From Pelotomaculum sp. PtaU1.Bin035 (lineage in GTDB: Bacteria > Bacillota > Desulfotomaculia > Desulfotomaculales > Pelotomaculaceae): 32,331 nt of DNA. How positions within the stretch are numbered: position 1 is the stretch's first letter; every line of letters starts with the position of its first letter. The notes beneath the pieces were generated by a model. It was not told the origin of the DNA. It saw nothing but the letters and a program-made list of their open reading frames with translations, and searched no databases. Made by a program: the position numbers and the translations under genes. Location of the stretch: the NCBI GenBank assembly GCA_002067965.1, contig MVRN01000099.1:1-32331 (forward strand). The letters are read 5' to 3'. This document shows positions 56 through 29,735 of the stretch, one piece after another.

Positions 56-1006
56 TTATACGGTAGCATTAACAGCCCGGCTTTCATGGAATTCATAGTA
101 GACAACCGGCACGTCGTGCGCTCCGCTGCAGTAAACCCAGATATAGCATTTCTTCTTGGATTCCCTGCCATCCTGCTGCACAACTTTCGTCCAGGTTTCA
201 TCTGCATGTAAGACTTCCTTGCTCAGCAGGGTACCTCTCATATGGGTATAGATCCTTGAAAAGTATTCTTCCGCACAGTGGAGTATCCAGTTGCTCATGT
301 TTTGCCTGGAGATTCGGACGCTGTCCATCCGGTCAAACTCTCGCTCGATCCGGGCAAGGGGCACCGCATTGGTATATTTAGTATTGATGATACCGGCGAT
401 CAACTCCGGTGTGGCAAAACTTCCGGGAATTGGCAAGTTAGGCATATCCGCACGGACAAAGGGAATTTTATCACCTTCACTTTGAGTCTTTTCACACGTC
501 CGGCAGGTATAAACATGACGGCGGTGCTCTTCGACTTCGAAATGAGCCGGTACAAGCTTCAGGGTCTTTGTAGCCTCAACTTTCATGTCGTGCAAAGGAC
601 TGTCGCAAACCGGACAGACCTGCTGTTCGGCTGGAAGCTCATGTTCAATGACGGTAACTTTTAAATCTTTGAAGTCCTGTTCACGCTTGCCCTTTTGTTT
701 GGGCTTCCTGGGAGTCTTCGCCGTCACCTCTTCGAAGGTGGGTTCAGGTCTCCCCTGCCGGGCAGCCGCTTCGGCTTCGTTAAAAAAGTTAAGTTGCTCC
801 ATGCCGTCGGGATAGGATACGGAATCACCGCTGGCACCGTACTTCCGATGATTATTCAAACGGATTATCTCGATGAGACGATTCAAGTTCCGAGTCAGTT
901 CGGCAATGGTCTGTTCCTGTTTCTCACAGCATACAGCCAACTCAGCCTGTGACATTTCCCTGTAATTGAGCTGTGGTTTTTGAGGTGATTTTGTCTCGCT
1001 AGCCAT
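56..1006 (-). pseudogene. tnpC: IS66 transposase TnpC, truncated after the first catalytic Asp region
   Basis: The 316 visible codons give a classic IS66 transposase N-terminus: a leucine-zipper-like helix (about residues 15-50), a basic linker rich in K/R/P, a zinc-binding pair of Cys motifs (CPVC and CRTC), and the start of the DDE catalytic domain with the motif LHADETW. Complete IS66 TnpC proteins are about 500-550 residues and continue after the segment YYEFHESRA with a second catalytic Asp in a TDGY-type motif. Here a TAA follows within a few codons of SRA, and neither other frame continues the protein over positions 1-65. A ribosome site (AAGGAT) precedes the ATG at 1006. The product is expected to be inactive because the rest of the catalytic core is missing. 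Confidence 0.85.
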
Positions 1007-1122
1007 ATCCTTATTATATACTGAACCAGCGGGAAATCACAGGATAATAGCGGTAAAAAGCCCTGAAACAGCCGAAAATAAGCCGTTTTTTCAAATTTCG
1101 TTAATAATTTTTTAGGAACTTA

Positions 1123-1476
1123 TTAAAGAATAATCCGTTGATTAACCGGTTTATGTGCGGATGGCTGTTCCATCGATAAACCATCCAAAAGCCATCTAAA
1201 CTGCCTTTCGGAAACCTCAAGGACCTGCTTGTTTTCGTAAAACTTCCATCGGAAGACGCCGCGGCTTAATTTGCGGTAGTACAACCACCAGCCATTATTC
1301 GACCAATGAAGGATTTTGCATTTATCACAGGTTCGGTTACAGAACACATAGAGGCAGTTGTCAAAAGGGTCCATTTTTAACTGAGTCTGCAGGGCTGCAA
1401 GTCCATCAATGCTTTTTCGCATATCACATGGTTTGCATGAAAGCAATATTCTGTGACCGTCAGAGTTTAGGCCCAT
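1123..1476 (-). CDS. tnpB: IS66 accessory protein TnpB (IS66 Orf2 type)
   Basis: This 117-residue protein matches the small IS66 Orf2 family. It has the diagnostic N-terminal stretch CKPCDMRKSIDGLAALQ, then YVFCNRTCDKCKILHW and a segment with GWWLYYRKLSRGVF. Family members are about 115-120 residues, so it looks full length. TnpB is required for IS66 transposition, but its biochemical role is not settled. Its ATG lies inside the end of tnpA (a 10-base overlap) and has no clear ribosome site of its own, which suggests translational coupling. A gap of about 116 bases separates it from tnpC. Confidence 0.88.
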   Translation of the reverse strand: MGLNSDGHRILLSCKPCDMRKSIDGLAALQTQLKMDPFDNCLYVFCNRTCDKCKILHWSNNGWWLYYRKLSRGVFRWKFYENKQVLEVSERQFRWLLDGLSMEQPSAHKPVNQRIIL

Positions 1477-1778
1477 AAGGAACGAATAGCAGTAATGGCC
1501 TCGCGCAAAGTTTCTCTCTGAAAGCCTGAATACAGCTCAATGGAAACCGCCCCAATTTTAACAATGACCGGAACTTCATTCACGGATGATTGCTTCAATT
1601 CAATAAAGGTTTCTTGCTTAATGCCGGCTTTGGCTTCGCGGTTACACTTAGTCAACCAGTATCGGAGTGTATTGATGTTTAGGTTGTTTTCTGAGCACCA
1701 TTCGGCAGCGGTTTTACCGGAAGAACGGTAATCGCTTACTTGCCGGCGTCTGATCATAGACTGCTCGTCAATAGTCAT
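1467..1778 (-). CDS. tnpA: IS66 accessory protein TnpA (helix-turn-helix)
   Basis: A small protein of 103 residues from the preferred start. Its N-terminal half is a helix-turn-helix of the transposase-8/IS66 TnpA kind (RRRQVSDYRSSGKTAAEWCSENNLNINTLRYW), suited to binding the element ends. The C-terminal half is a short beta-rich region. Two in-frame ATGs exist: 1784 sits only two bases after GGGGAGG, while 1778 has an 8-base spacing and is the likelier start. It is the first gene of the IS66 operon and overlaps tnpB. Confidence 0.82.
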   Translation of the reverse strand: MTIDEQSMIRRRQVSDYRSSGKTAAEWCSENNLNINTLRYWLTKCNREAKAGIKQETFIELKQSSVNEVPVIVKIGAVSIELYSGFQRETLREAITAIRSLWA

Positions 1779-2005
1779 GGACATTTCCTCCCCATATTGT
1801 CTTGAGGTTATTATCTCAATTCTAAAAGGGAGTTGCTATGTGCAAAGTTTTTGACAATTACCACTCTAATGAAAAACCTTCTCAAAGGACAATATCGTTT
1901 TTTGTCGAATCGTTATAAGATAAGCCGCTTAATGGTTGGATAATAAATTATTTTTCCGTCAATCATAGTAACATTACTAGCAATATGCGGGAGGTTTATA
2001 TTTAT

Positions 2006-3013
2006 ATGAGGGATTGGGTGAAAGGCTTAATGAGCAGAAAGGTTTATATGGTTGCCCTGGTTCTATTGGTCTTGGGGGTTTCCGGGTACTTTATGAAGTC
2101 TCAATTGGTAAATGCTGGACGGGGCGTTGCCGGGCCTTCTTATTCTGAAATGAGTATGGATAATAATCAAACCGGTGCAGTGCCTGGTTCCACTACTGCT
2201 CCGCCAGAGACAAACGGCGCGTCCGGTCCTAAAAATTCCGGTTCTAGTGTCGGCGACCCTGAAGTAATCAGCGGAGCTTCTGTCGCGGAAAAACCTTCAG
2301 GCGCGCCTGCCAGCAGCCAGTTATCAAACGCCAAACATGGTTGGGGGATGAAGCGCAACAGCAGTCATCTTCAACCGGAGATGCCGGTATCAATCAGTGC
2401 CGGACTTAGCAAGTACGGCGCTTATTGGATCGGCAGCCCCAATGAAAAGGCGGTTTACCTGACCTTTGACAATGGTTATGAAAACGGGTATACCGCCGGC
2501 ATTTTGGATACTCTCAAAGCTAACAATGTCAAGGCGGCTTTCTTTATTACCGGGCACTATCTGGATACCCAGCCGGAGTTGGTCAAGCGGATGGTGAGCG
2601 AGGGCCATATTGTAGGGAACCATACCGACACCCACCCCAGCCTGCCCGATATCACTGATGAGCAGATTAAAAAAGAGCTTCAAACGGTTGAGCGGGGTTT
2701 TGAAAAAACTACCGGTGTTAAAACTATGAAGTATCTACGGCCGCCAAAAGGTGAGTACAGCGAGCGCACCCTGGCGGTGACCAGGGAATTGGGCTACCAT
2801 AACATCTTCTGGAGCCTGGCGCTGGTGGACTGGGTGCCGATGCCGGGCGGCCCGGAGGAGGCTTACCAGTCGGTAATGGACAACCTGCACAATGGGGCGC
2901 TGATCCTGCTGCATACAGTCTCCAAGGACGACGCTATGGCGATGGACCGTATATTAAAGGATATGAAGGCTCAGGGTTATACGTTCAAGACACTGGATGA
3001 CCTGGTAAAATAA
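2006..3013 (+). CDS. pdaA: PdaA-type polysaccharide deacetylase (spore cortex muramic-delta-lactam synthesis)
   Basis: The product is predicted to remove the N-acetyl group from muramic acid residues, a step towards the muramic-delta-lactam of spore cortex peptidoglycan. Near the N-terminus there is one hydrophobic helix (VYMVALVLLVLGVSGYF), then a low-complexity Gly/Ser/Pro linker of about 80 residues, then a NodB domain. NodB motifs are visible: TFDNGYENGYT (the form typical of PdaA rather than TFDDG), HTDTHPS for metal binding, RPPKGEYS, a WSLALVDW segment and LLHTVS. The closing KAQGYTFKTLDDL also matches PdaA. The ATG at 2006 follows GGGAGG by 11 bases; an ATG at 1985 is in frame but has no ribosome site. 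It implies a spore former. It converges on the GH15 gene with only six bases between them. Confidence 0.88.
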   Translation: MRDWVKGLMSRKVYMVALVLLVLGVSGYFMKSQLVNAGRGVAGPSYSEMSMDNNQTGAVPGSTTAPPETNGASGPKNSGSSVGDPEVISGASVAEKPSGAPASSQLSNAKHGWGMKRNSSHLQPEMPVSISAGLSKYGAYWIGSPNEKAVYLTFDNGYENGYTAGILDTLKANNVKAAFFITGHYLDTQPELVKRMVSEGHIVGNHTDTHPSLPDITDEQIKKELQTVERGFEKTTGVKTMKYLRPPKGEYSERTLAVTRELGYHNIFWSLALVDWVPMPGGPEEAYQSVMDNLHNGALILLHTVSKDDAMAMDRILKDMKAQGYTFKTLDDLVK

Positions 3014-3019
3014 TGGCGC

Positions 3020-5017
3020 TTATTTTAGTATGCTCAGCCTGTTGTCTAGCGCCAGCCGGGTAAGCACGAGCATTGCGTGGGACCAGTTAAGGGGCGTTAC
3101 CCAGGCTGGCCCGCCGCGGTTCTTGTCGGCTTGTTCGGGTAGAAGCAGGTGGCGGTTTGACTGTTCCAGACACCAGCGGTAGAGCTTTTCAGCTTGGTCA
3201 CGTTTTCCGGACATACAGTAATAAATTGCCAGCCAGGAGGTTGTAATCAGCCAGGGATTGCCGCCTCTATAGATGTCTCCTTCGTAGCGGTGCAGGCCGC
3301 CGATATCGCGGTTCCATAAAAAATCCTCAACGGCCCGGGCGGTCGCCTGCATTCTTTCGTCATCTGGATCCAGTACGGCGAACGGGAAAGCCAGCCCTAA
3401 CAGGGCAGCGTCTACCCGTTCATCTTCTCCTACCCAGTAAGTGGGGTAAAGACCGGCGGGATCGGTTCCGGTAAAGGTTTTTTTACCTTCATAGGCTGCT
3501 TGGCCGTAAGTATCCTTGTATACCCTTCTGTTTATTCCACGCATGAACCTGTTGTGTTTTTCCGACCACTGGTGGTTTAATATCCCTTTTTTTACGTTTT
3601 CCGCAGCTAGATGCCACTGTTCCGCTGCTTCATTTTTCCCTTTTATCGCGGCGATTTCACTTGCTGCTTTCAAACCGCCATATACCGCGGCTGCTGAGTA
3701 AGTGCCCTGGCTATGCTCATCCTCCCAGGCATCAAAGCTGGGGCATGGGAGGCCGTTTGCTTCCAGGTTCGCCGAAAGGTAACCGGCGCCCGCTGCCAGG
3801 GAGTGCCAGGTCTGCTCCAGGAAAATGTCGTCACCGGTAAGGCTGTAGTGGTGCCGGTAACCCCACAACACAGATCCCACCTGGTCAATTTGCTTTCCCC
3901 AGGTAGGCGCAACCGAGCCGTCCGTGAAATATCTTTGCTGCCAATCGCCTCCATCTTCTTGGACGTCGCTGGCAAAACTGTAGAATTGCGCGGCAATGTC
4001 GTGATAGCCGGCCTCGTCAAAAGCAATGGCGACGTATGCTGAATCGCGCGGCCAGCAGTATCCGTATCCTCCGCACATCGAATAATATGGATCAAACTCC
4101 GGCGCGGCGATGGACGCTCCGGTTTCTTTGCTAGACATCAGCTTCATTGCCAGAAGCGACCGGTGATAAGCTTTGGCGCTCATATTTTCACCAGGCGACG
4201 GTATACCTTTCTCAAGCCAGCCGCGCCAGTACTGCTTTGTGTCTTCCAGCCATTCACGGCCTTCTTTCGAGGCGGCTTCGGTCACCAGCTCTTTTACCTT
4301 TCTTTGTCCGGCGCCTGCCGCCAGATAAAGTGTTAAGTTCTTTGTTTCTCCCGGCTGAAGTTCACCCATGTCCCAACTCAAGCTTCCGGCGCTCTGCCGG
4401 ATATTATCTTTCCCTCCCCGCAGCGCTCCCCTTGACGCGTCTTGGAAGGGGTCGGAATGGGTGCCTCGCCTGCCGCACTGGTAGCCGGCCAGGGGGTACC
4501 CTGCCCCTGAGACGGCCAAATAAACGTTTCTCCGGAAAAATATGAGGGAGTTATTAGAGTATTCGAAGTAGGCGCCGTCATAAAGGGTAGATTCTTCAAT
4601 ATCGAAAGTGCAATATACAATAAAGGTTAGCTTTTCGTTTTTCTCTCCGTGGTTGGTCAAAGTATAGTACCGGACCAGGATATCCCGGTCGGGGATAACG
4701 AAATCCCGCTGAATAGCTTCTAGATTGTGCGTACGGCTGGACATTTCAGTTTCTAATATGTTGGTGTTTTCCAGGTAGTGTTGGGAAGATTTCCATATAT
4801 TTAAGTGGAACCATTTGGTGAAACAATGCCCGTCCGGTAAAGCCACTCTTATTCCCGGCCAGTAATGACCGAGGTGTTGGCCGTATTCGATATGTGGCCA
4901 GAAAAGCCTGTAGATCTCCCCGTTGTCCCTAACGGAGGCAAGCATTCTGGAGTTTCCGATGATCGCTTCCGGCATTTCCGGCTGGGTTTTTGGAGTTAAT
5001 ATTTTCTTCACCACCAT
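3020..5017 (-). CDS. Glycoside hydrolase family 15 (glucoamylase-like), cytosolic
   Basis: A 665-residue protein with the prokaryotic GH15 plan: an N-terminal beta-sandwich domain (to about residue 260; opening PEAIIGNSRMLASV) and an (alpha/alpha)6 barrel. Barrel motifs include GGYGYCWPRDSAYVA (316-330) and FDAWEDEHSQGTYSAAAVYGGL, where Glu432 fits the catalytic acid. Near the end is PLNWSHAM: in many bacterial glucoamylases the matching place reads HAE, with Glu as catalytic base, but here it is Met649. No signal peptide is seen, so it probably acts on intracellular alpha-glucans or oligosaccharides such as glycogen or trehalose-like sugars. Substrate cannot be told from sequence. The ATG has no strong ribosome site. 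It follows the related 331-residue gene by 56 bases, probably as one transcript. Confidence 0.85.
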   Translation of the reverse strand: MVVKKILTPKTQPEMPEAIIGNSRMLASVRDNGEIYRLFWPHIEYGQHLGHYWPGIRVALPDGHCFTKWFHLNIWKSSQHYLENTNILETEMSSRTHNLEAIQRDFVIPDRDILVRYYTLTNHGEKNEKLTFIVYCTFDIEESTLYDGAYFEYSNNSLIFFRRNVYLAVSGAGYPLAGYQCGRRGTHSDPFQDASRGALRGGKDNIRQSAGSLSWDMGELQPGETKNLTLYLAAGAGQRKVKELVTEAASKEGREWLEDTKQYWRGWLEKGIPSPGENMSAKAYHRSLLAMKLMSSKETGASIAAPEFDPYYSMCGGYGYCWPRDSAYVAIAFDEAGYHDIAAQFYSFASDVQEDGGDWQQRYFTDGSVAPTWGKQIDQVGSVLWGYRHHYSLTGDDIFLEQTWHSLAAGAGYLSANLEANGLPCPSFDAWEDEHSQGTYSAAAVYGGLKAASEIAAIKGKNEAAEQWHLAAENVKKGILNHQWSEKHNRFMRGINRRVYKDTYGQAAYEGKKTFTGTDPAGLYPTYWVGEDERVDAALLGLAFPFAVLDPDDERMQATARAVEDFLWNRDIGGLHRYEGDIYRGGNPWLITTSWLAIYYCMSGKRDQAEKLYRWCLEQSNRHLLLPEQADKNRGGPAWVTPLNWSHAMLVLTRLALDNRLSILK

Positions 5018-7870: not shown

Positions 7871-7900
7871 TTTCATTTTGTAAAGAAAAAGGGGATGTTT

Positions 7901-8206
7901 ATGAATAACCCTCGACTGCTTCTGATTTTATTTGCTCTGGCCTTTCTCGGCATCCAGGTGGTAAGTTTTATGTCCAACATAACAAGGCACGAAGAGAGGA
8001 TGGTAAAACTCGAAAAACAAGTGATTCAGGTTGAGAAAGGCGCCTATATTGATCTGAAAATGGACCCTTCGGTGGAACTTAGAAAGGAAGAATCCGGTTT
8101 TAAATTAGAAATTGTTAATTTTATTATCAAATTGCTGGTTATTTCCGGGGCCACAGCCTTTGTCTTCAATATGATGAAAAATAAACGGGGTCTAAAAAAA
8201 GAATAA
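7901..8206 (+). CDS. Small membrane protein with two predicted helices, function unknown
   Basis: A protein of 101 residues from the preferred ATG at 7901, which is six bases after AAGGGG; the in-frame ATG at 7895 touches the ribosome site and is less likely. It has an N-terminal hydrophobic helix (LLLILFALAFLGIQVVSFM), a charged amphipathic middle (HEERMVKLEKQVIQVEKG, possibly coiled coil), then a second hydrophobic stretch (FIIKLLVISGATAFVFNMM) and a basic tail KNKRGLKKE. It lies 30 bases after the SLH gene and is probably co-transcribed. I recognise no family. Confidence 0.65.
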   Translation: MNNPRLLLILFALAFLGIQVVSFMSNITRHEERMVKLEKQVIQVEKGAYIDLKMDPSVELRKEESGFKLEIVNFIIKLLVISGATAFVFNMMKNKRGLKKE

Positions 8207-8242: not shown

Positions 8243-8500
8243 TCAAATAGGTATAATTTGAATAGCAGCCAGGATAGCCAGTCCTAGTATGGATATAACC
8301 GCCATTGTTTTGGTACGGTTGTGAGCTGCGGCCAACCCGGATAATGCTTTTTCCAGGTAAAGAATTTTTTCATTTATTTCATCAATAGAATAGTTTATAA
8401 TAGCGGCTTTTTCTCCGGCTGGCAGCATGATTTTATCCTGAATAGTGGATGCCAGTGAATTAACCAGTTCAACCTGTTTGTCGGAAATCTCAGTCGTCAT
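8243..8500 (-). CDS. Small tail-anchored helical protein, last gene of the dynamin operon
   Basis: An 85-residue protein. The ATG at 8500 is preceded by GGAGG at eight bases and overlaps the end of the previous gene by 11 bases; an upstream in-frame ATG at 8581 would read through most of that overlap region and lacks a ribosome site. The N-terminal part is helical and charged (ISDKQVELVNSLASTIQDK; YSIDEINEKILYLEKALSGL), and the C-terminus is one hydrophobic helix (TMAVISILGLAILAAIQIIPI) ending the protein, so it should be tail-anchored in the membrane with its body in the cytosol. No family is recognised. Its position suggests it could recruit the dynamin-like GTPase to the membrane; that is an inference. 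Confidence 0.65.
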   Translation of the reverse strand: MTTEISDKQVELVNSLASTIQDKIMLPAGEKAAIINYSIDEINEKILYLEKALSGLAAAHNRTKTMAVISILGLAILAAIQIIPI

Positions 8501-8789
8501 TCCGCATTCCTCCACCAGCCTGGTTGATGGCGTCTCTGAGTGCCGCCAGAATGACCAGGGGTACTTTTTGTATTTTATCATCCAGCATTGCTAAGGCAGC
8601 CTTTAAATCAATTATCGCTGTACGCTCCTGTTCTTTCAATTCTTCCAACTGCCCGGCAATTTTACAGTTTTCCTCCAGCACCGGCTGCACCAGCTTTGCC
8701 TTTAATCCGGTGAGGATATCCGATAACATTTGCCTGATCAGTTCGTCGCTTATTTCGTCACCCTTCAGGCCTTCCAGTTTTACTTCCAA
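8490..8789 (-). CDS. Small coiled-coil protein in the dynamin operon, function unknown
   Basis: A 99-residue, mostly alpha-helical protein starting at TTG (8789), eight bases after GGGAGG. The middle (ENCKIAGQLEELKEQERTAIIDLKAALAMLDDKI) has the heptad-like spacing of a coiled coil; there is no membrane helix and no catalytic motif. It overlaps the next gene and is 14 bases from the previous one, so the three small genes are almost certainly translated from one mRNA with the GTPase. I do not recognise it. Confidence 0.65.
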   Translation of the reverse strand: MEVKLEGLKGDEISDELIRQMLSDILTGLKAKLVQPVLEENCKIAGQLEELKEQERTAIIDLKAALAMLDDKIQKVPLVILAALRDAINQAGGGMRNDD

Positions 8790-8803
8790 AATACTTACCT
8801 CCC

Positions 8804-8998
8804 TTATATTTTTTCAACGGCGCTTTTCAACAGTGCCAGCATCCTGATTATTTCTTTATGGGAGTGTTTTTCCATCGCTGTGTTGATGCTGCCCTCAAAA
8901 TCAAGGAGCAGGGATTTTTTGATTTCTCTCCCGGTGCGTTCGCTAACATTACCAATAATTTTACGAAGCCGCTCATCCAGAAGCCTGGTGTTTTCCAT
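8804..8998 (-). CDS. Very small helical protein directly after the dynamin-like gene
   Basis: A 64-residue protein rich in Lys, Arg, Glu and Leu, predicted to be wholly helical (LLDERLRKIIGNVSERTGREIKK; HKEIIRMLALLKSAVEKI). Its ribosome site GGGAGG is embedded in the last codons of the GTPase gene, and its ATG is four bases after the GTPase stop codon, arguing for coupled translation. No domain is recognised. Confidence 0.6.
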   Translation of the reverse strand: MENTRLLDERLRKIIGNVSERTGREIKKSLLLDFEGSINTAMEKHSHKEIIRMLALLKSAVEKI

Positions 8999-9002
8999 TA
9001 AT

Positions 9003-11357
9003 TTACAACCTCCCGGGGCTATAAATAGTTTTTTTGATATTTTTTATTTCCCTGCGGGACTCCCTTAGTATTCCCAGCGCGCGGCGCAGTGATTTTTTTC
9101 TTTCGCTAAAACCCTGGCCTTTTTCAAATAGCTCAATGTTAATTTTTTGCGAAAGACCCTCAAGTTCTGCGTGCAGTTCATTCAGCTTGTTCCTGTAAAA
9201 ATCCTTGCCGCGGTAGCGCATGATCTCTTCTTCAAGGCTTTTTAGCAGGATTTCCATGCCCCGGTCTTTTCCTGCGAGTCCACTTAGGGCGGAGATCAAA
9301 AATATCTTCGGGTCCGGGAAAACCCGGGCGCCGGGTGAGGTGGTCCGGCTAAGGTTTTTACGGACGAAGTTGACTACTGCTTCTTTTTGGGAGGTGGTCA
9401 GAACGTCTGCAAAGTTAACAACGAAGAAAAATTTAGCCGATTCTTTCTCCGTCATTTCTAGCCGTTTAAAGCTAGCGTTTATTTGAGGCAAAAAGACTGC
9501 TTGCAGGTTCTCTCTGTCCATGTCGTTCAGGATGTGCCTGCCGTTAAGAAAAACAAGGCAGGCGTCACTTTGCCGGATGCAATCGGATATATCGGCGAAG
9601 TAGTGTTTTTGGATAGAGTCGAGACCCGGTGTATCTATAAAATCAACCAGCTTAAGGAACTCGGAGGGGTGGCTGATATTGATGCCCGCGACCCGGAAAA
9701 CGTTCTCAGATCCAGTTGTTTCTCTGAATTTTTTTATATAGGCCGGGTTTGAAAGATCAAATTCCGGCGCATCCGGATATTGAAAAGTTAAACGTACTTT
9801 TTGAAGCACTTTCTTTCCGGCGGTTCCCTTTGTGGGAACTGGCTTGAAAACGGCCGGTGTCCGGTGAATCCCGGCAGCCCTGGCAAAAGCGCCCGCCGCG
9901 AAAAACTCCTTGGTCAGCTCGGCCAAAGCAGCCATTTCCCGCCTGTCTACTTGTTTAAAGCGGCCATCTACGCAGGCCTCCAGATATGCAATTTCTCTTT
10001 CATTATTTGCAAGCCATTTTTCCAACGTGTCCAGTTCGTACCGGCAGAGAAGGTTATTGCCGCCGGCGCTTTCAACGATCCGCATGGTGACTTGCAATGG
10101 GATGTGTACAGTCGCCATTTTGTGTTCACCGTATGAGATCCGGGTTAAGGCTGAGGTCGTCGGTCCATTTCCTGTGGGAAGAATTTCTTCTTTCAACAAA
10201 GCATTAAAAAAAGTTGACTTGCCTGTGGAAAAACTTCCTGCCGCCACTATTGTGAAACGTTCTCCGGCGATTTCCCCCGCTAGTTTTCTCAACCCGGCGC
10301 GATCCAACAAACCATCCAATTGCTTTTCTCGCATTAAATACCCAATCAACCCCAGGATGAGTTCCCTGCCTTCTTTAAGGCCCGCGGCGCGCGGGCGGTA
10401 AAGCTGACCGCCCGGCCTGTTCTCCGCCTTGAGTAAATTGGACGAATTAATTGTATTTAACAATTCTTCCGTTTCTCCAATAATTAATGGTATGGATTTA
10501 ATAGAATTGTTCACAGAATGAAGCCGTTCCGCTGTTTCAAACACCTTCCAGAATTCAGACAGGAAGAGGGATTCATCTGTAATTTCTATTATCTTTTTCA
10601 GCCTGGCCGGTATTTCACTGTCAATTTTTATTAATTTTTGGGCTAGGTTATCAAAATGGCGCTTGGCCAGTTCTACTTCCAGATAGAGGCGTATTGCCTT
10701 GATATTTTCCTGGTTGAATGTATTTATCGCATTCAGCCTTACCCGGCTTAAAAAAATTTCTCTCAGCGCGGCCCGGGTCGTTTCAAGAGAAGTTCCGTCA
10801 CAATCTCCCAAATTACAATTAAGCCAGAATGAAATATCGTTTAAATTTTTACCCTTCCAGATTGAAGCGAACTTGTATAGGAATACCCTGTTAAAATTCT
10901 CCATCCCACGCTGGTGAAAAAGGTAGATAACCTTATCAGCTTCTTTGGCGGCTTGTTCAGCCAGGCGGATAGCTTCATGGGATTGGAAATCTATACCCGG
11001 CGTATCAATCAAACGGCATTTTTTTAAAATTGGAGACGGGATCTCAATATTCACCCGTCCGCCAGGGTTCCGTTGGCCTGCCAAGAAAGAATTGAAACTG
11101 ACGCGGTCGTTAAATATCCACTTGTCCCGGATTCCGGCATACTTAGCGCAAAAAGAATCCCCGTAATCAAAATATAAAAGGCGCCCCGTTGTGGGAACGG
11201 CGCCCACCGGGCTTATTTCTTCACCAAGCAGGCAGTTCAACAGAGTAGACTTACCTGAGTTGAACGAACCTAGTATAGCCACGGCAGGTTTTGTGCCCGG
11301 CCCGGCGAGGTCTTTTAATTCTTCCGACTTGGCCACAAAGATTTGCAGCTTGCTCAT
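9003..11357 (-). CDS. Bacterial dynamin-like protein with two tandem GTPase domains
   Basis: A 784-residue protein carrying two dynamin-family G domains. Domain 1 has a P-loop GSFNSGKST (30-38), a switch-I PTT (55-57) and DTPG (118-121); its G4 region is degenerate. Domain 2 has GSFSTGKST (374-382), PTT (399-401), DTPG (575-578) and a G4-like NFAD (648-651). Helical stalk-like segments follow each domain (about 215-365 and 700-784, with basic coiled-coil character). Bacterial dynamin-like proteins bind and remodel membranes; Bacillus DynA is also a two-in-one fusion but is larger, about 1,190 residues. No membrane helix is visible. The last gene of the operon supplies one in a small protein. 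The start at 11357 has AGGGG about ten bases upstream. Possible roles are membrane repair, fusion or phage defence; none can be chosen from sequence. Confidence 0.85.
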   Translation of the reverse strand: MSKLQIFVAKSEELKDLAGPGTKPAVAILGSFNSGKSTLLNCLLGEEISPVGAVPTTGRLLYFDYGDSFCAKYAGIRDKWIFNDRVSFNSFLAGQRNPGGRVNIEIPSPILKKCRLIDTPGIDFQSHEAIRLAEQAAKEADKVIYLFHQRGMENFNRVFLYKFASIWKGKNLNDISFWLNCNLGDCDGTSLETTRAALREIFLSRVRLNAINTFNQENIKAIRLYLEVELAKRHFDNLAQKLIKIDSEIPARLKKIIEITDESLFLSEFWKVFETAERLHSVNNSIKSIPLIIGETEELLNTINSSNLLKAENRPGGQLYRPRAAGLKEGRELILGLIGYLMREKQLDGLLDRAGLRKLAGEIAGERFTIVAAGSFSTGKSTFFNALLKEEILPTGNGPTTSALTRISYGEHKMATVHIPLQVTMRIVESAGGNNLLCRYELDTLEKWLANNEREIAYLEACVDGRFKQVDRREMAALAELTKEFFAAGAFARAAGIHRTPAVFKPVPTKGTAGKKVLQKVRLTFQYPDAPEFDLSNPAYIKKFRETTGSENVFRVAGINISHPSEFLKLVDFIDTPGLDSIQKHYFADISDCIRQSDACLVFLNGRHILNDMDRENLQAVFLPQINASFKRLEMTEKESAKFFFVVNFADVLTTSQKEAVVNFVRKNLSRTTSPGARVFPDPKIFLISALSGLAGKDRGMEILLKSLEEEIMRYRGKDFYRNKLNELHAELEGLSQKINIELFEKGQGFSERKKSLRRALGILRESRREIKNIKKTIYSPGRL

Positions 11358-11460
11358 AAAAAAGCAGCCCCTGGCTAGGTAGTAAATTCTTTTATTTATA
11401 TATTAATAGATGACCTGCTTTATGACTGGGTTGCGATAAAAGCGTCAGTCTAAAAATTTC

Positions 11461-11495: not shown

Positions 11496-11800
11496 CAAGT
11501 TATATCTGGAAAAGGCTATGAAGGGGACAAAGGGCTTGTGTATTGGGCTGCAGAGAGCCGGAGAAGCTGAAAACCGGTGCCTTTAATGCTTAGCTTGAGA
11601 TCACCCCGGAGCTGCCGGCTGAAAGAATGCCAGTAAGCCGGGTCGTTTTGGCGTACGTTACAACGCTCTGCCTCCCCAGGCATATTAAGAGGCTTCCTTA
11701 TTTGACGGAGGCAAGCAGGGTGGTACCGCGCAAGGTTTTAACCTCTCGTCCCTGGCAGTGTAAAAAATCAGCTGCCGGGAGGGGGGTTGTTTTATTTCTT
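11496..11800 (+). ncRNA. T-box leader, apparent isoleucine (AUC) specifier
   Basis: The leader has the hallmarks of a T-box riboswitch that reads uncharged tRNA. Stem I carries AGAGAG (11552-11557) followed by CCGG. The specifier region reads TTGAGATCACCCCGGAGCTG, which places ATC (11600-11602) in the usual specifier position before the CCGGAGCTGCC stretch. The conserved T-box AGGGTGGTACCGCG is at 11717-11730. A terminator follows. When tRNA-Ile is uncharged, its CCA end should pair with the T-box bulge and let transcription enter ilvE. The AUC reading rests on my alignment to the usual leader layout, but it fits the operon. Confidence 0.9.
11742..11797 (+). terminator. T-box-controlled intrinsic terminator
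   Basis: CCTCTCGTCCCTGGCAG (11742-11758) pairs with the following CTGCCGGGAGGGGGG, with a loop rich in A, then TTGTTTTATTTCTT. The 5' arm overlaps the stretch after the T-box that would form the antiterminator, as expected for this mechanism. Confidence 0.85.
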
Positions 11801-29440: not shown

Positions 29441-29476
29441 TTGAAGAGAGCTTGTTTCCTAAAAACGAAAAAATAA
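29441..29476 (+). CDS. Possible 11-residue leader peptide before the glmS ribozyme
   Basis: TTG at 29441 follows GGGGAGGTG at a four-base spacing and opens a reading frame of 11 residues (MKRACFLKTKK) that ends eight bases before the predicted ribozyme cleavage site. The strong ribosome site with no other gene nearby is the main argument. Translation could affect the ribozyme leader, or the frame may be chance. Confidence 0.3.
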   Translation: MKRACFLKTKK

Positions 29477-29483
29477 ATAACAA

Positions 29484-29735
29484 GCGCCAGGACCCTTCTT
29501 GAATTTTAAGGTGTTTCAAAATTCAAGGTTAAAAATTACTGGGGTAAATATATAAGTTATTTGATTGGTTTTCAATGTTTCCCAGGTAATTTTTAGGGTT
29601 GACGAGGAGGGGGTTAATCGAAGTTTTCGGCGGGTTCCCCCCGGTCCGGCCTGACCGTCAGCGGCATTACAAAACCTCCGGGTAACCGGTGGGACAAAGA
29701 TGCCGGCGGCTAAGAGCGGCATAACGCATAAGGAT
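29484..29735 (+). ncRNA. glmS self-cleaving ribozyme/riboswitch
   Basis: Conserved core segments are present in order: AGCGCCAG at the cleavage site (cut predicted between A29483 and G29484), GTTGACGAGGAGGGGGTTAA, TCGAAGTTTTCGGCGGGTT with CCCCCCGG, CTGACCGTCAGCGGC, AAAACCTCCGGGTAACCGG and GGGACAAAGATGCCG. Glucosamine-6-phosphate acts as cofactor, so cleavage lowers the glmS mRNA when the product is plentiful. The P1 extension (CTTGAATTTT with AAAATTCAAG) and P2 (AAAAATTACTGGGG with CCCAGGTAATTTTT, with a loop of about 36 bases) are longer than in Bacillus. It fills most of the 451-base gap between glmM and glmS. Confidence 0.93.

Follow-up and report, generated by a model that had tools for sequence, protein, structure and literature searches.

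The window, a stretch of 32,331 nucleotides (nt) from Pelotomaculum sp. PtaU1.Bin035 (contig MVRN01000099.1, positions 1 to 32,331), carries four co-directional open reading frames (ORFs) at 11357-8243 on the minus strand, which encode a tandem-GTPase dynamin and three small helical proteins, here called A, B and C. The operon represents a dynamin-superfamily member of new composition. The four genes probably form a membrane-remodelling module of endospore-forming Desulfotomaculia that is linked to sporulation and touches the membrane through separate subunits. That the operon is linked to sporulation can be said with somewhat more assurance and is likely; a specific role in mother-cell engulfment or fission is proposed tentatively.

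Composition, linkage and descent of the operon

The trunkless, dynamin-like GTPase (9003..11357, minus strand; 784 amino acids [aa]) was recognized from its ORF, Pfam matches, motifs and predicted structure. All three small genes follow on the same strand: A (8804..8998; 64 aa, ATG start) begins 4 bases past the GTPase gene, B (8490..8789; 99 aa, TTG start) 14 bases past A, and C (8243..8500; 85 aa, ATG start) overlaps B by 11 bases. This is the layout that the first-pass annotation had described, with the same lengths and spacings. A longer frame of 112 aa is possible for C from 8581, and the homologues begin near the 85-aa start.

The neighbourhoods of 40 relatives were examined together with the window, giving 41 GTPase loci. 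Genes of the A, B and C types were present downstream of the GTPase in identical order at 41/41 loci. Homologues of A were detected with E values of 6e-9 or better and those of B with 5e-12 or better; C is the most diverged and was recognized outside its own family by its position, the SLAxxIxxxxxxP motif and the tail anchor. When A alone was used for a blind scan of 84,980 species, 38 loci were found, and the GTPase, A, B and C were present at each (38/38); no 64-aa gene without the GTPase was found in these 84,980 genomes. Among 100 genomes, comprising the own genome and relatives, 49 have the GTPase (E below 1e-20), and all 49 also have A; in its own family the GTPase is in 23 of the 25 genomes. 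No GTPase of this type lacking the small genes was found among the loci and genomes examined. The proposal that the small genes are dedicated companions is upheld by these counts, since the GTPase was never seen alone at the 41 loci, nor A without the GTPase at the 38 loci found through A.

Carriers include Pelotomaculum, Desulfofundulus, Desulfovirgula, Desulfotomaculum copahuensis, Desulfocucumis, Desulfoscipio, Desulfallas, Desulfotruncus, Sporotomaculum and unnamed relatives. Across the phylum, a sample of 398 genomes gave strong matches in the same order only. The scope "across Firmicutes" suggested earlier for the search proved wrong: a single class, that of the Desulfotomaculum and Pelotomaculum relatives, carries the set. 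A complete operon was also found at 316-3315 of locus L109, on a contig labelled "Actinobacteria bacterium". The start of its GTPase is much like that of the Peptococcaceae locus L105, and the contig is probably mislabelled or part of a mixed bin.

Purifying selection on all four genes is indicated by the ratio of nonsynonymous to synonymous substitution rates (dN/dS), which in ten close pairs was about 0.04-0.6 and in most cases 0.1-0.25. Because dN/dS is low and because order and composition are kept in every relative found, the gene set is not a chance arrangement. Taxonomic families were each monophyletic in the trees of the GTPase and of A+B, neither of which showed transfer between families, indicating vertical inheritance within families. 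The operon is single-copy and core-like in its own family. Its flanking genes recur within families and vary between them, and different gene company was never seen inside one family cluster. The four genes alone are shared by all loci, and no further universal operon member was found among the neighbours. On viral contigs, no A was found and relatives of the GTPase reached the P-loop level only; no copy was found on plasmids.

The GTPase and its small companions

Pfam PF00350 (Dynamin_N) matched the GTPase in two stretches (E 1e-36), placing it in the dynamin superfamily. In profile comparisons, GTPase domain 1 (10713..11300, minus strand; residues 20-215) gave Cj-DLP2 of Campylobacter as the best match among full bacterial dynamins, and GTPase domain 2 (9264..10262, minus strand; residues 366-698) matched Cj-DLP1. 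An alignment of 27 sequences shows both cores to be intact and conserved (G35 K36 S37 T38 and D118 P120 G121 in domain 1; G379 K380 T382 and D575 P577 G578 in domain 2), and the P-loop and DTPG motifs are conserved across 27-37 sequences. The two complete GTPase motif sets reported earlier for this single 784-residue protein are therefore real. The G4 motif of domain 2 is N648-F649-x-D651, and domain 1 has NxGxxDGTS where NKxD is expected. In one closed genome (G010, locus L058, 4998-7290), the GTPase gene lies in two frames, split near residue 430 within domain 2, with A, B and C intact; the split may be genuine or may come from a frameshift or a sequencing error.

The predicted model of the GTPase (predicted local distance difference test [pLDDT] 82, predicted template modelling score [pTM] 0.71) consists of GTPase 1 (20-215), helices to 308 and at 327-365, GTPase 2 (366-698) and helices at 699-745 and 751-779. 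The VIA-align structure comparison covered mainly residues 318-782, the first half being barely covered for folds. Residues 321-782, that is, domain 2 with its flanking helices 321-365 and 699-779, best matched truncated mitofusins made of the GTPase and HD1 (Z 26.9, 330 residues, root mean square deviation 4.3), indicating a neck of the bundle-signalling type. The minimal constructs of Mitofusin-1 and -2 gave Z values of 25-27 at a sequence identity of about 13%; full mitofusins, unlike this GTPase, have HD2 and a membrane segment of their own. Next in the structure comparison was the Campylobacter pair (Z 24.6). Of the full-length bacterial dynamins, the Cj-DLP1/Cj-DLP2 pair is closest in structure and sequence, but its members are encoded by two separate genes, have trunks and are described without small tail-anchored partners (PMC6104087).

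The four-helix trunk with a lipid-binding tip that is typical of bacterial dynamin-like proteins (BDLPs) is absent from the model, where GTPase 2 is followed by just two helices, 699-745 and 751-779, and no hydrophobic paddle was found in the GTPase. The protein is accordingly predicted to be a dynamin without a trunk and not a full BDLP. Lipid binding and tethering by the C. jejuni DLP complex are lost when its trunks are removed (PMC6104087), which makes it plausible that a dynamin without a trunk depends on a partner. Since this GTPase is trunkless and never occurs without a tail-anchored neighbour, the best reading is that membrane contact would be provided by that neighbour.

The neighbour in question is C, which has an N-terminal SLAxTIxKKxVxP motif, a variable helix and a predicted C-terminal tail-anchor helix (8246..8311, minus strand; residues 64-85). 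A hydrophobic C-terminal helix was present in 41/41 homologues of C and in 0/41 of A and B, as had been anticipated from the single sequence of the last small protein. Few residues follow the hydrophobic stretch, and it is mostly preceded by a positively charged segment, which suggests that the N terminus of C is cytoplasmic. Protein A has a strongly conserved N terminus (MENARxLDERLRKIIREVSxxTG), and B has the motif DILxGLKxKxVQPVLxEN, a predicted coiled coil and a C-terminal PLxILxALRDAINQA. The small proteins had been described as free of recognizable domains, and Pfam indeed gave nothing above cut-off for A, B or C; profiles from Pfam, NCBIfam, PADLOC and PDB sequences gave no convincing match, the weak ones being to coiled-coil or designed proteins. 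A weak helix-K-x-V-x-P-x-E resemblance was detected between C (8420-8473, minus strand) and B (8682-8733, minus strand) with an hhalign probability of 41%, and it may perhaps stem from an ancient duplication or from a docking motif that both share. In the same comparison, A resembled neither B nor C.

A promoter-like element and a probable link to sporulation

A promoter-like element, GTCATAAAGCAGGTCATCTATTAATATA, is located at 11399..11426 on the minus strand, about 42 bases ahead of the start codon of the GTPase gene. It resembles the mother-cell sigma-E promoters that precede spoIVA and spoIIIAA in this family. Its form is GTCATAAA-N14-AATATATA, at 11426-11399 plus two bases beyond. The first-pass annotation read the gene set correctly but missed this conserved element, the most telling feature of the operon, which sporulation genes also carry. 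With the strict pattern G[TG][CTA]ATA-N15-17-AATATA, searched within 250 nt upstream, the element was found at 31/39 operons (families f1, f8, f12, f16 and f18) compared with 0/286 control genes at these loci and 5/3900 shuffles (0.13%).

In B. subtilis, spoIVA and spoIIIAA are established as canonical mother-cell sigma-E genes. In the genomes that carry the operon, the spoIVA site (GTCATATT-N13-CATATATA) and the spoIIIAA site (GGCATAAN...CAATATTTA or CATATTTA) are closely similar to the operon element. A matrix was trained on the promoters of these two genes and applied to the dynamin operons, which scored a median of 13.6 bits, compared with a 99th percentile of 12.7 for the controls; 26/39 operons exceeded the control 95th percentile, and the spacer was 14 in nearly all. 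The promoter of spoIIE, a control for which another promoter type is expected, had a different arrangement, and the idea of a mark common to every early sporulation gene was rejected.

In C. difficile, the sigma-E consensus has ATA at -35 and a CATA-like -10 (PMC3789822). Most operons have GTCATA, which contains the ATA of the -35 half, and the spacing of the -10 half AATATATA fits sigma-E (16-18 bp from -35), but this half lacks the C of CATA.

The spoIIGA gene also carries the element or a close variant, with the same spacing, throughout the family. With a stricter pattern, four places were found in the own genome: the dynamin operon, a site about 50 bases before spoIIGA and two sites inside coding frames. 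Many other matches were found in the relatives, in coding frames or before unrelated genes, and none recurred except those of the dynamin operon and spoIIGA. At the spoIIGA loci (L185-L208), the family shares a GTCATAA-N15-AATATAAT element with the dynamin operon, whose user may be sigma-A/Spo0A or sigma-E. Transcription of spoIIGA in other species depends on sigma-A with Spo0A. This combination is the main alternative for the element and would still be sporulation control.

Two members of the own family lack the operon, G016 (64% complete) and G023 (85% complete). In G023, none of spoIIGA, spoIIE, spoIVA and spoIIIAA was above cut-off, so that this relative looks asporogenous. The own genome also encodes a conventional dynamin-like pair of 592 and 611 aa, whose genes flank one of 241 aa (locus L157 on contig C29, 142-1920 and 3370-5205); no sporulation-like element was found upstream of this pair.

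The other features of the window lie around the operon or apart from it. The T-box leader (RF00230) of a divergent ilv operon, at 11509-11756 on the plus strand, stands upstream, back to back with the promoter-like element. Downstream and convergent with the operon are a small membrane protein and an SLH/amylase cluster. The convergent gene beside the operon end (7895-8206, plus strand) encodes 103 aa with an N-terminal membrane helix and is kept at the same place in 19 genomes of the family and not outside it. A glmS ribozyme (Rfam RF00234, 96.7 bits) precedes a 609-aa frame at 29472-29715 on the plus strand.

Competing readings and biological meaning

In the proposed mechanism, the operon would be turned on in sporulation, and sigma-E in the mother cell would probably be responsible. 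The tandem GTPase, with two dynamin heads and short helical necks and no lipid-binding trunk, would work together with C, which may sit in the cytoplasmic membrane through its C-terminal helix and project a coiled coil. A and B would be soluble helical adaptors coupling C to the GTPase necks. GTP-driven contacts between heads would then pull membrane together, at septal or engulfing membranes. The fullest form of this model, which we consider possible but doubtful, is a dynamin dedicated to endospores, expressed in the mother cell under sigma-E, that uses its tail-anchored subunit for membrane contact and GTP to remodel or divide the engulfing membranes, alongside FisB or in its place. FisB (YunB), which serves membrane fission during sporulation, would share with the operon the process proposed here, remodelling of mother-cell membrane, but FisB is not a GTPase. 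No part of the operon matched FisB/YunB in the Pfam scan; FisB elsewhere in the genomes was not searched for.

Several observations weigh against a sporulation-linked module of this kind. The -10 half AATATA has A or T where CATA has C; spoIIIAA of some relatives also has AATATTT. Family f5 has a diverged form of the element only (0/4 by the strict pattern), and the matrix was built from two genes of one family. The spoIIGA promoter mapped in C. difficile is a sigma-A promoter (PMC3789822), so another factor could own the element. The correlation of presence and absence consists of a single genome, G023, which is 85% complete. The operon is absent from many class genomes outside the carrier families, some of which probably sporulate, and is thus not universal for sporulation. 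As to the complex, A, B and C were folded as a joined chain, read through the stop codons at locus L107, where all three are in one frame; this chain, which is not a true multimer, gave separate long helices (pLDDT 82, pTM 0.38), and a rigid A-B-C bundle is not supported by this pTM. In families f12, f16 and f18, the GTPase is 200-250 aa longer at the C terminus, with A, B and C still present. The idea that the small proteins merely substitute for the lost trunk was rejected as the full story because these longer forms keep them; A, B and C must be more than that.

The operon could instead encode a vegetative dynamin for membrane maintenance, which surveys the membrane and seals damage with the small proteins as anchors, the promoter likeness being coincidental or due to an AT-rich sigma-A variant. 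This we regard as rather unlikely. DynA of B. subtilis is likewise a Firmicute dynamin with two GTPase domains in one polypeptide and acts in membrane surveillance; its description does not mention sporulation (PMC8844932). The GTPase studied here has a weak NCBIfam match to DynA (84 bits), and the single-copy, core-like and vertically inherited operon, as well as the sharing of the element with spoIIGA and its sigma-A promoter in C. difficile, would suit such a role. The match amounts to 83.7 bits compared with the curated cut-off of 1600 for the DynA equivalog NF052648, so that the protein is not DynA by this measure, and the DynA model is 1187 long compared with 784 here. Against a vegetative role, the element is absent from the 286 controls and fits the spoIVA/spoIIIAA matrix, the conventional dynamin pair of the same genome lacks it, and the apparently asporogenous relative lacks the operon. 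DynA is not known to have three small partners in its operon or to be a sporulation gene.

A GTPase signalling complex like E. coli RdcA/RdcB, which would regulate a membrane enzyme and not shape membranes, is improbable. A dynamin-like GTPase and an operon partner that act via a membrane protein are known (PMC6510439), and the GTPase here has neither trunk nor paddle. The two complete heads and the mitofusin-like neck suggest mechanical head-head work, however, and no conserved enzyme gene stands beside the operon.

The earlier suggestion of phage protection, by a dynamin-based system like LeoABC or the phage tolerance of DynA, which limits phage lysis (PMC8844932), is now very improbable, because the operon occurs in one class, is near-universal in its own family, descends vertically with recurring flanks and was not found on viral contigs or plasmids, a pattern that is neither patchy nor mobile as in defence islands. 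The PADLOC LeoA model did match the GTPase motifs (E 1e-19), but in four short stretches only, and A, B and C matched none of the LeoABC models. LeoABC of E. coli is also a dynamin with operon partners, but LeoB and LeoC are themselves dynamins (PMC4159319), whereas the partners here are helical proteins of 64-99 aa.

No named system of the same composition was found in Pfam, NCBIfam, PADLOC or the literature, in agreement with the first reading. Streptomyces DynA/DynB are dynamins in (exo)sporulation (PMC7985256), but they act at FtsZ rings in Actinobacteria, and their gene composition differs from that of this operon. In the literature searched, no paper was found that links a bacterial dynamin to Desulfotomaculum or Pelotomaculum, and none on an endospore dynamin.

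Among bacteria, FisB is described as the one dedicated machinery for membrane fission known so far (PMC8274934). If the sporulation-linked module is real, a GTP-driven dynamin that belongs to endospore formation would add a second kind beside it, and bacterial dynamins would gain a developmental role in endospore formers. The combination of a trunkless dynamin with membrane attachment on separate small subunits would be a natural test of which parts are needed for membrane work, and the perfect linkage of the four genes makes them a ready unit for reconstitution.

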